In this document: in pieces, positions 14,901 through 18,708 of the stretch
Position numbering within the stretch: the stretch's first letter is position 1
How the letters are laid out: each line of letters begins with the position of its first letter
Origin: an uncultured Acetatifactor sp.
Lineage (GTDB): Bacteria; Bacillota; Clostridia; Lachnospirales; Lachnospiraceae
DNA: 64,000 bases
Reading direction: 5' to 3'
Assembly (NCBI GenBank): GCA_947625475.1
Contig: CANQOL010000016.1
Location: forward strand, 1 to 64,000
Notes under the pieces: generated by a model
Told to the model about the DNA's origin: nothing
The model's input: the letters and a program-made list of their open reading frames with translations, nothing else
Database searches by the model: none
Position numbers and translations under genes: made by a program

Positions 14901-16940
14901 ATGAGACCAGAATGGACAGATTTTGTAGGCGGCAAATGGGAATCTGAAATCAACGTGCGTGATTTCATCCAGAAGAATTATCATCCCTATGACGGGGACG
15001 AATCCTTCCTGGCCGGACCTACCCAGAACACGAAAGACCTGTGGGCACAGGTGCTGGATCTGCAGAAGCAGGAGAGAGAGGCAGGCGGCGTCCTGGATAT
15101 GGACACCAAGGTTGTTTCCACGATCACCTCTCACGGCCCCGGCTACCTGGACAAGTCCAAGGAGACCATCGTCGGCTTCCAGACCGACAAGCCCTTCAAG
15201 CGTTCCCTGCAGCCCTACGGCGGCATCAGAATGGCTGAGAAGGCATGCGCTGACAACGGCTACGAGGTAGATCCCGAGATCAGCGAGTTTTTCTCCACTC
15301 ACAGAAAGACCCACAACGCAGGCTGCTTCGACGCATACAATCAGGAGATGAGAGCCTGCCGTTCTTCCCATATCATCACCGGCCTGCCTGACGCTTACGG
15401 CCGCGGACGTATCATCGGCGACTACAGAAGAATCGCCCTGTACGGCATTGACCGTCTGCTGGAGGATAAGCAGGCCCAAAAGGATTCCACCGGCCGCGTG
15501 ATGACCGACGATGTGATCCGTCTTCGCGAGGAGCTCTCCGAGCAGATGACCGCTCTGAAGCTGATGAAGGAGATGGCGGCCTCCTACGGCTACGATATCT
15601 CCAAGCCCGCCAAGAACGTGCAGGAAGCCATCCAGTTCACCTATTTCGGATATCTGTGCGCCGTGAAGGAGCAGAACGGAGCGGCTATGTCCCTGGGACG
15701 TACCTCCACCTTCATCGACTGCTACGCGGAGAGAGACCTGGCCAACGGCACCTTCACCGAGGAGCAGATCCAGGAGTTTGTAGACCACTTCATTATGAAG
15801 CTGCGCTGCATCAAGTTTGCCCGTACTCCCGAGTACAACCAGATTTTCGCCGGCGATCCCGTGTGGGTAACCGAGTCTCTGGGCGGCGTTGGCGTTGACG
15901 GACGCCACATGGTGACCAAGACCAGCTTCCGCTACCTGAACACCCTGACCAACCTGGGACCTTCTCCCGAGCCCAACCTGACGGTTCTGTGGTCCACCAG
16001 GCTTCCCGAGAACTGGAAGAGATACTGCGCGAAGATGTCCATCCAGACCTCTTCCATCCAGTACGAGAACGACGACCTGATGAGAGTGGTTCACGGCGAC
16101 GACTACGGCATCGCATGCTGCGTGTCCTCCATGGTCATCGGCAAGGAGATGCAGTTCTTCGGCGCACGTGCCAACCTGGCAAAGTGCCTGCTGTACGCTT
16201 TGAACGGCGGCGTGGACGAGGTGACCAAGAAGCAGGTAGGCCCCAAGTACCGTCCTGTTACCGGCGATGTGCTGGACTACGACGATGTGATGAGCAAGTT
16301 CATGGATATGATGGAGTGGCAGGCTGATGTGTATGTAAATACCCTGAACATCATCCACTATATGCATGATAAGTACTGCTATGAGAGAGCTGAGATGGCC
16401 CTCCATGACAGAGACGTAAAGCGTTACTTCGCTACCGGGGTGGCCGGACTGTCCATCGTGGCAGACTCCCTGTCCGCTATCAAGTACGCGAAGGTTGAGG
16501 TAATCCGTGACGAGGACGGCGTGATCGTGGACTTCAAGACCACCGGCGACTTCCCTAAGTACGGCAATGACGACGACCGTGTGGACCTGATCGCTCAGGA
16601 CATCGTCCACAAGTTCATGACCGCCGTGAGAAGACATCACACCTACCGCAACGGCATTCCTACCACCTCCATCCTTACCATCACCTCCAACGTGACCTAC
16701 GGTAAGGCTACAGGCAACACCCCTGACGGACGGAAGAAGGGCCAGCCCTTCGCACCCGGTGCCAACCCTATGCACGGACGCGACACCCACGGCGCAGTGG
16801 CTTCCCTGTCCTCTGTTTCCAAGCTTCCCTTCAAGGATGCGCAGGACGGTATCTCCAATACCTTCACCATCATCCCCGGCGCTCTGGGCAAGGAGGATAA
16901 GGTGTTCAGCGGCGATATCGAGATCGACCTGAATAAATAA
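14901..16940 (+). CDS. pflB: Pyruvate formate-lyase core subunit lacking the glycyl-radical domain
   Basis: The 679-aa protein is a PFL over its whole length: [35 protein letters not shown], and [11 protein letters not shown] with the catalytic Cys-Cys pair at C406-C407. It ends at [20 protein letters not shown]. Intact PFLs are ~740-760 aa and continue here into a C-terminal glycyl-radical domain with RVSGYA; that domain is absent from this chain and is encoded separately at 17273. The TAA at 16938-16940 falls in the natural linker, not inside a folded segment. Function: CoA-dependent cleavage of pyruvate to acetyl-CoA and formate in the cytoplasm, requiring the separate domain and PflA. Codon use is highly biased, as in strongly expressed genes. 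Confidence 0.93.
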
Positions 16941-16958: not shown

Positions 16959-17162
16959 ATGGATGATCAGAAAATGATTGACGATCTTGTAAAGCTTCTG
17001 GACGGCGGTATGCTCCAGGGTGTAGGGCATGTAAATGTAGATTACGATGCCGCAAGTCAGCAGTCAAAGAATGTTCAGACAATGGGCTGTTCGGATTGCT
17101 CCCGCACTCCCCTGGCATGCAGTGTCCCCACCCTGCATGAGGGACTGGACGACTATCAATAG
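16959..17162 (+). CDS. Small protein resembling the start of a glycyl-radical domain, with a Cys motif
   Basis: A 67-aa protein from ATG 16959 (AAAGG 10 nt upstream); an in-frame GTG at 16950 is too close to the ribosome site. Its first 27 residues (IDDLVKLLDGG, then QGVGHVNVD) align with the beginning of the separate glycyl-radical protein ([11 protein letters not shown], then KGGHHLNVN). It then diverges and has no RVSGY loop, so it cannot carry the radical. Instead it ends with Cys at 44, 47 and 54 (C-X2-C-X6-C) and an acidic tail. It starts 18 nt after the core gene stop. Possible roles: a cap that occupies the empty site on the core, an assembly factor or a metal/redox sensor. None is established. 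Confidence 0.72.
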   Translation: MDDQKMIDDLVKLLDGGMLQGVGHVNVDYDAASQQSKNVQTMGCSDCSRTPLACSVPTLHEGLDDYQ

Positions 17163-17183: not shown

Positions 17184-17227
17184 AAAACGGAACCGTTTTC
17201 GGGGCGCGGCCCGGCATCCGGGCCGCG
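17184..17227 (+). promoter_or_regulatory. Paired hairpins in front of the glycyl-radical gene
   Basis: A first stem AAAACG/CGTTTT (17184-17199) is followed by a perfect 10-bp GC stem, CGCGGCCCGG (17205-17214) and CCGGGCCGCG (17218-17227), with loop CAT. No T-run follows, so it is not a standard terminator. It could be an RNA processing or stability element that adjusts the ratio of the separate domain to the core. Confidence 0.5.
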
Positions 17228-17272
17228 GTCCGGGAATATACAATAACAAATAAAAAATAGGAGGAAAAAATC

Positions 17273-17515
17273 ATGGCAGCAAGTACCGCACAGGTTGACA
17301 ACCTTGTAAACTTATTGGATGGATACGCCACCAAGGGCGGCCATCACCTGAATGTAAACGTTCTCAACAGAGAGACCCTTCTGGACGCTCAGAAGCATCC
17401 CGAGAACTACCCTCAGCTGACCATCCGTGTGTCCGGCTACGCAGTAAACTTCATCAAGCTGACCCCGGAGCAGCAGGCCGACGTTATCTCCCGTACCTTC
17501 CATGAGTCCATCTGA
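17273..17515 (+). CDS. Autonomous glycyl-radical domain of the split pyruvate formate-lyase (GrcA-like)
   Basis: An 80-aa protein equal to the missing C-terminus of [23 protein letters not shown], then [18 protein letters not shown], then [10 protein letters not shown] with the radical Gly at position 55, then [15 protein letters not shown]. It starts from ATG 17273 behind a strong AGGAGG. In Escherichia coli GrcA (YfiD) such a domain is a spare part replacing an oxygen-cleaved PFL tail; here the main PFL has no tail of its own, so this protein should be an obligatory subunit. PflA would install the radical on Gly55. The gene is followed by a strong terminator. Confidence 0.92.
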
Positions 17516-17660: not shown

Positions 17661-18440
17661 ATGCAGGGCAGAATTCATTCTCTGGAGAGCTTCGGCACTG
17701 TGGACGGCCCCGGCACCCGGTTTGTGGTGTTCGTGCAGGGCTGTCCCATGAGATGCGCCTACTGTCATAACCCGGATACCTGGGATATGAAGGGGGGCAC
17801 TCTCATGGAGCCCTCTTACATTATCGAGCAGTACGAGCGGAACAGCCCCTTCTATGTCAACGGGGGCGGCCTGACTGTCACCGGCGGGGAGCCCCTGATG
17901 CAGATCGACTTTCTGCTGGAGCTGTTCACCCTGGCCAAGGAAAAGGATATCCACACCTGTATCGACACCTCCGGGATCGCCTACAACCCGGACAGCGCCT
18001 CCCAGAGGGAGAAGCTGGACCGGCTCACGGCCCTGACGGACCTGGTGATGCTGGATATCAAGCATATCGATCCGGAAAAGCACCGGGAGCTAACCCGGCA
18101 GCCCAACACCAATATTCTGAAGTTTGCGGAATACCTGGACAAGAAGCATGTGGATATGTGGATCCGCCATGTGGTGGTGCCCGGCATCACCGACGACGAC
18201 AAATATCTGTACGACCTGGGCTATTATATCGGCCAGTTCCACAACCTGAAGGCCCTGGACGTGCTCCCCTACCACACCATGGGGGTGAAAAAATACGAGA
18301 GCCTGGGCATCCCCTACCGGCTGAAGGGTGTGCCGGCCATGAACCAGAACATTCTGCTGGAGAAAAAGCAGGTGATCCTGGAGGGCATCAAGGCCCGCCG
18401 CGCCCAGGATGAGAAGGATCACCCGGCGGGGAAAGCCTAA
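17661..18440 (+). CDS. pflA: Pyruvate formate-lyase activating enzyme (radical SAM)
   Basis: A 259-aa radical SAM enzyme. FVQGCPMRCAYCHNPDTW carries the C-X3-C-X2-C iron-sulfur motif (C28, C32, C35), preceded by SFGTVDGPGTRFVVF, typical of PFL-activating enzymes. VTGGEPLMQ is the SAM-binding GGE motif. With a reduced electron donor and SAM it abstracts hydrogen from the glycine of the glycyl-radical domain. At this length it has no extra ferredoxin insert, as expected for the PFL-type activase. It lies after the operon terminator and before the ferredoxin gene. The ribosome site is AAGGAG. Confidence 0.95.
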   Translation: MQGRIHSLESFGTVDGPGTRFVVFVQGCPMRCAYCHNPDTWDMKGGTLMEPSYIIEQYERNSPFYVNGGGLTVTGGEPLMQIDFLLELFTLAKEKDIHTCIDTSGIAYNPDSASQREKLDRLTALTDLVMLDIKHIDPEKHRELTRQPNTNILKFAEYLDKKHVDMWIRHVVVPGITDDDKYLYDLGYYIGQFHNLKALDVLPYHTMGVKKYESLGIPYRLKGVPAMNQNILLEKKQVILEGIKARRAQDEKDHPAGKA

Positions 18441-18537: not shown

Positions 18538-18708
18538 ATGGCATTTGTGATCAACGATGGATGTGTCTGCTGCGGCGCTTGTGAGGGTGCCTGCCCTGTA
18601 GGCGCAATCAGCATGGGCGACGGCAAGTTTGAGATCGATCCGGATAAGTGCATCAGCTGCGGTTCCTGCGCTGGCGCATGTCCTACCGGCTCTATCAGCG
18701 AGAACTAA
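18538..18708 (+). CDS. 2[4Fe-4S] ferredoxin
   Basis: A 56-aa ferredoxin of clostridial type. C9-X2-C12-X2-C15-X3-C19-P and C38-X2-C41-X2-C44-X3-C48-P give two complete cluster-binding sets arranged as a pseudo-twofold repeat. The start ATG follows ATTAGGAGG. It is a cytoplasmic low-potential electron carrier. Next to pflA it could supply the electron needed for SAM cleavage or serve general fermentation redox traffic; the sequence does not decide this. It has its own promoter and is followed by a long inverted repeat. Confidence 0.93.
   Translation: MAFVINDGCVCCGACEGACPVGAISMGDGKFEIDPDKCISCGSCAGACPTGSISEN

Follow-up and report, generated by a model that had tools for sequence, protein, structure and literature searches.

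PFL is a central and very oxygen-sensitive enzyme of anaerobic fermentation. In E. coli, the oxygen-cleaved enzyme is restored by the spare part YfiD (GrcA; PDB 6owr), which acts at the vacant radical-domain site and duplicates strand β10 of the PFL barrel (PMC8683613). The cleaved chain keeps a stub, residues 696–733, that includes strand β10; YfiD binding and activation need this stub, which has to give way to the strand that YfiD itself brings (PMC8683613). When the enzyme is truncated further (tPFL, residues 1–695), no YfiD binding is detectable by calorimetry, and the radical level is 32-fold below that of cPFL:YfiD (PMC8683613). In many Lachnospiraceae and some other Clostridia, PFL is found in separate pieces, and the pairing of a truncated, or split, PFL with the radical-domain protein GrcA3 (NF038360) is already named in NCBIfam. 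Other glycyl radical enzymes have small Cys-rich partners (BSS β/γ, HPAD γ and MASS β/γ/δ) that ligate clusters or iron; the Fe-S accessory subunits carry a four-Cys CX2CXnCXnC cluster motif, and MASS δ lies at the radical domain (PMC12358834).

The window analysed here, a stretch of 64,000 nucleotides from an uncultured Acetatifactor sp. (contig CANQOL010000016.1), encodes such a split PFL: the core ORF stops before the radical domain, which is a separate ORF. Between the 679-aa core and the 80-aa GrcA3 lies a 67-aa protein, as the original prediction had noted. We refer to this partner protein, which is not named in NCBIfam, as p67. The locus comprises the following features.

14901..16940, forward strand: PFL core, 679 aa; TIGR01255 at 1094 bits, reaching profile position 665 of 744.
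16959..17162, forward strand: p67, between the PFL core and GrcA3.
16959..17042, forward strand: p67 residues 1–28, a copy of the radical-domain N-terminus (helix plus the strand that is β10 in PFL), with in-register profile matches.
17088..17153, forward strand: p67 residues 44–65, the Cys/acidic motif C44-x2-C47-x6-C54-S-V-P-T-L-x-x-G-L-D-D, sharing homology with the tail found on the core of two-part split PFLs.
17195..17237, forward strand: G+C-rich hairpin in the p67–grcA3 spacer, with no U-run after it; not general in the genus.
17273..17515, forward strand: GrcA3, an 80-aa stand-alone glycyl-radical domain with RVSGYAV; NF038360 at 161.6 bits.
17661..18440, forward strand: PFL-activating enzyme (radical SAM); TIGR02493 at 287 bits.

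The core lacks both the glycyl-radical domain and the radical loop, and its tail contains no Cys. The p67 gene starts 18 bases past the core stop codon and translates to MDDQKMIDDLVKLLDGGMLQGVGHVNVDYDAASQQSKNVQTMGCSDCSRTPLACSVPTLHEGLDDYQ (67 aa plus stop); an in-frame GTG upstream would give 70 aa, and the ATG start is the one common to relatives. GrcA3 is the sole copy in the genome and scores above the curated NF038360 cut-off of 158 bits, with p67 below it at 14.2 bits. The p67–grcA3 spacer (113 nt) folds at −46 kcal/mol, and its very stable hairpin sits right before a strong grcA3 ribosome-binding site. The hairpin occurs in some relatives only, spacers there ranging from 18 to 226 nt with many unstructured, and it is perhaps an mRNA stabiliser or an attenuator that fixes subunit ratios. 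Immediately downstream of pflA, a small 2[4Fe-4S] ferredoxin-like ORF (18538–18708) might supply electrons to the activase.

The first ~27 residues of p67 had been predicted to resemble the radical-domain N-terminus, making the front half a duplicated and remodelled docking segment, and profile comparisons bear this out. The single p67 sequence matches GrcA3 weakly (48% over residues 7–29, E = 2). A p67 profile, by comparison, reaches an E of about 1e-4 on the GrcA3 N-terminus and of 1e-3 to 0.3 on the corresponding segment of full-length PFLs, and all these matches are in register. A broader profile, run across 381 genomes of the class, returns the same match, with many hits at 1e-7 to 1e-4 over profile positions ~3–34, and NF038360 itself matches 21 of 24 diverse p67s at E up to 0.1 (best 1.3e-6). 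Because GrcA3 residues 9–79 align with E. coli PFL 683–758, p67 residues ~4–33 correspond to about PFL 680–710, a region that contains strand β10. At the sequence level, then, the likeness of the first ~30 residues of p67 to the radical domain goes beyond chance.

Like YfiD, p67 thus carries the radical-domain N-terminus in copied form, with a strand that duplicates β10. Unlike YfiD, it has neither the glycyl loop nor the C-terminal helix and cannot carry the radical; the R-[VI]-S-G-Y loop is absent from the window p67 and from the fetched p67s, so that of the two hallmarks of the GrcA/YfiD family only the N-terminal helix and strand are present. Instead p67 has the Cys/acidic motif, and it coexists with a separate GrcA3, whose first ~28 residues it copies. 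The E. coli stub 696–733 is similar in that it begins with the same strand region and is itself no radical domain, but it belongs to the core chain and lacks a dithiol motif, whereas p67 is a separate protein, or is represented by the motif alone as a core tail.

The C-terminus of p67 reads DCSRTPLACSVPTLHEGLDDYQ, in agreement with the earlier reading of the translation: RVSGY is absent, C-X2-C-X6-C is present and the end is acidic. The surroundings of Cys44–Cys54 are almost invariant within the genus. Across p67s, C54 (of A-C-x-x-P) is nearly universal and one of C44 and C47 is usually enough, C44 being replaced in many relatives and C47 in a few. The expectation that the Cys residues would be conserved beside split PFLs therefore holds for C54 and one further Cys, which are strongly kept, and does not hold for the three-Cys site. 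Spacing of the Cys pair ranges from 0 to 6 residues over p67s and the core tails described below, which have two or three Cys. The conserved unit, judged from these alignments, is two closely spaced Cys followed by x-x-P, and a fixed three-Cys cluster site was rejected as the general unit. We define this dithiol element as C-x0-6-C-x-x-P close to the C-terminal end of either p67 or, in split PFLs lacking p67, the core, the two never occurring together; the window p67 carries it. Three p67 relatives (L208, L209 and L210) have a stop right after CxxC and so lack the AC-x-x-P part, with two Cys still kept.

The p67 gene is widely distributed. It is present in 54 of the 61 genomes of the genus, with the order core–p67–GrcA3 at all fetched genus loci, and G006, the one near-complete genus genome that lacks it, encodes an intact PFL of 757 aa. 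Searching a named genome collection returned 430 stretches with p67 relatives, on contigs of Acetatifactor and related Lachnospiraceae. Within the Lachnospiraceae, 96 of 348 genomes have a p67 match, or 90 after six weak matches (E above 0.001) are dropped; a strong GrcA3 match accompanies p67 in 89 of these 90, and the remaining genome (G463) is 67% complete. Overall, p67 spans hundreds of genomes and several families. Its C-terminal part has a pN/pS of 0.065, below the values of GrcA3 (0.092) and of the N-terminal part (0.164), and the C-terminal half is thus under stronger purifying selection than GrcA3.

The window sequence, 24 diverse relatives (against Pfam and NCBIfam) and a profile were used in the family search; Pfam, NCBIfam and a PDB sequence search gave only a weak, GrcA3-like N-terminal match, and the PDB search yielded no solved homologue. 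NF038360 covers the radical domain alone, and neither p67 nor the equivalent core tail is in any of the libraries searched. Among open papers, we found nothing on p67, GrcA3 or split PFL in Lachnospiraceae. We conclude that p67 is real, conserved and undescribed.

Two PFL-unlinked p67 relatives, L180 (genome G734) and L181 (G749), both lie upstream of proB/proA genes. Extra stand-alone grcA3 copies occur at five loci (L246, L248, L249, L250 and L253), where the fetched flank shows no PFL core; their genomes already have one grcA3 in or near the pfl locus, and the L246 copy adjoins a tRNA-Leu gene. Sixteen IMG/VR viral contigs (L274–L289) carry GrcA-like radical domains that are 64–81% identical to GrcA3. 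A phage origin of p67 was rejected, as no p67 was found on the IMG/VR viral contigs.

The original prediction also asked whether p67 always accompanies split PFLs. It does not: some split PFLs have no p67, and in these the core extends beyond ALGK plus ~15 residues with a tail such as ...ECGNMACNIPNIEESIDRE, ...GCEAGSCAIPNLEEGLDRE or ...SCTSCCTPTLHRGIDD, following the pattern C-x0-6-C-x-x-P-[NT]-[LI] and then acidic residues. Cores accompanied by p67 have short tails and no Cys pair. Among distinct Lachnospiraceae cores, two or more tail Cys occur in 0 of 155 with p67 and in 32 of 34 split cores without it (Fisher test 3e-34, ancestry ignored), where the Cys frequency of PFL would predict 1.8 of the 34 by chance. 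An independent test set, made up of split PFLs that belong to other families of the class and had not been used in forming the rule, gave 0 of 4 with p67 against 8 of 11 without. The pooled counts for the class are 0 of 159 and 40 of 45.

The two elements also resemble each other directly. A tail profile aligns with the p67 profile at an hhalign E of 4.7e-7, and gives p67 sequences a median score of 18.2 bits, compared with 2.7 bits for those shuffled sequences that scored, every shuffle falling below the p67 median. On this evidence, the core tail of p67-less split PFLs and the C-terminus of p67 are one motif on different chains. Four genomes with an unlinked p67 (G734, G749, G459 and G786) have it far from the PFL genes, and their cores lack the dithiol tail. 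The motif, in cis or in trans, is therefore an almost constant companion of split PFL. It is not strictly required, because five of the 45 p67-less split cores (G740, G586, G940, G977 and G1038) have neither element.

On trees, the cis and trans arrangements interchange about 13 times in the best tree; counting supported branches alone gives at least 5–6 changes. Independent pairs fall almost all in opposite directions, but the supported pairs are too few to reach significance (sign test p = 0.125). Three full-length PFLs (L254, L256 and L257) are nested among split ones, lack the motif and are probably re-fusions, which suggests that covalent attachment of the radical domain makes the motif dispensable and that the motif goes with the split state. 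A fourth, the 774-aa single-chain PFL of genome G552 (L255), is likewise nested among split PFLs and resembles a two-part enzyme that has been re-fused; its linker between core and radical domain contains the Cys motif insert VTCGCEEVTCAVD and retains CGCEEVTCAVD. As motif and radical domain stand in one chain here, the motif need not take the place of the radical loop.

Taken together, these data point to p67 as a dedicated accessory protein of split PFL, probably a placeholder and loader for GrcA3 whose Cys pair serves as a redox- or metal-dependent latch; we give this reading a probability of roughly 55%. It draws on the two halves of p67, the front copying the start of the radical domain and the back corresponding to a motif that relatives fuse to the enzyme itself. 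The N-terminal ~28 residues (helix and copied barrel strand) would guide p67 to the core's empty docking site, and the C-terminal part would then present the dithiol/acidic motif at the vacant site. Where p67 is missing, the same motif stands on the core C-terminus, next to the same site, which suggests that the motif does the work, with the copied segment anchoring it in trans. The equivalence of the motif in cis and in trans is seen in the comparisons above, and anchoring by the copied segment is what homology would predict. Docked p67 may stabilise the vacant core and mark it for GrcA3, yielding as the strand and radical loop of GrcA3 move in, a role like that of the 696–733 stub in oxygen-cleaved E. 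coli PFL, and the Cys pair probably renders this action reversible or dependent on redox state or metal.

A loader or placeholder role is plausible by analogy with the YfiD work in E. coli. The split core ends even before the truncated E. coli enzyme, and a substitute recognition or holding element would thus be expected. AlphaFold2 was run on natural in-frame read-throughs, with stop codons as Gly, so that the docking of p67 could be compared in the presence and absence of GrcA3. With shallow alignments, both models were poor: core plus p67 reached a pLDDT of 67, with the p67 C-terminus at about 30 or below, and core plus p67 plus GrcA3 reached 48. The original prediction is partly supported, and the plug, chaperone or redox gatekeeper that it put forward is a plausible hypothesis. 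A more specific and rather doubtful version has p67 or the tail acting as a thiol gate, filling the vacant pocket, reversibly locking the catalytic Cys pair under oxygen and yielding to fresh GrcA3 in anoxia. If so, the core would outlast oxygen and replacement would be limited to the 80-residue GrcA3 cartridge.

Chief among the rivals of the placeholder and loader reading are a cap that does nothing but protect and an accessory subunit that binds metal. As a cap only, p67 or the tail would plug the pocket after oxygen destroys GrcA3, shield or disulfide-bond Cys406–Cys407 and compete with GrcA3, with no loading. Delivery of a dithiol to the vacant site in both the cis and trans arrangements fits such a role, as do the truncated relatives L208–L210, which keep CxxC alone and still have two Cys. 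The window GrcA3 has no Cys, and a disulfide partner would therefore have to be in the core. The core, however, shows no clear-cut split-specific Cys partner: apart from a rise of C429 and C493 there is none, and C429, found in all split cores, also occurs in 43% of full-length PFLs. The variable spacing of the Cys pair (0 to 6) and the presence of motif and radical domain on one chain in L255 also speak against a mere cap, and we regard it as unlikely.

Somewhat less likely still is that the Cys residues of p67 ligate an Fe-S cluster or a single metal, stabilising the core or gating domain movement. There is precedent in the small Cys-rich subunits beside glycyl radical enzymes, with MASS δ at the radical domain (PMC12358834), and C44-x2-C47-x6-C54 resembles a ligand set. 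The described cluster subunits, however, have four Cys in a CX2CXnCXnC arrangement, whereas the p67 motif has at most three (three in p67 itself, two in many relatives) and the cis tails have two or three at variable spacing. Nor do those subunits contain radical-domain copies, and none of the 24 diverse p67s compared with Pfam and NCBIfam, nor the PDB sequence search, gave a match to Fe-S accessory-subunit families. A variant in which the ligand site is shared between subunits may be considered.

The thiols adjoin a detachable radical domain, and p67 might instead quench stray glycyl or thiyl radicals by hydrogen-atom donation whenever that domain is badly seated; an unproven proposal for HPAD γ is that it reduces the glycyl radical (PMC12358834). 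Activated E. coli PFL, though, is prepared and assayed in 10 mM dithiothreitol (PMC10591478); thiols in the vicinity therefore do not necessarily quench it, and generic quenching is improbable. Finally, a non-functional remnant of a grcA3 duplication, the outcome that the original prediction named as its own refutation, would explain why the N-terminal half copies the start of grcA3, but this decaying duplicate was rejected and is barely credible given the strong purifying selection (low pN/pS), the conservation of gene and Cys beside split PFLs over hundreds of genomes and several families, the retention of p67 when unlinked from PFL genes, and its replacement by the cis motif when lost.

The new element here is that split PFLs without p67 bear the same Cys motif on the core C-terminus. 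Through this complementation in cis and trans, a short dithiol element is nearly always found alongside the split state. As such, p67 opens a testable route to a question left by the YfiD work, namely how a PFL core without its radical domain stays competent, loaded and protected.
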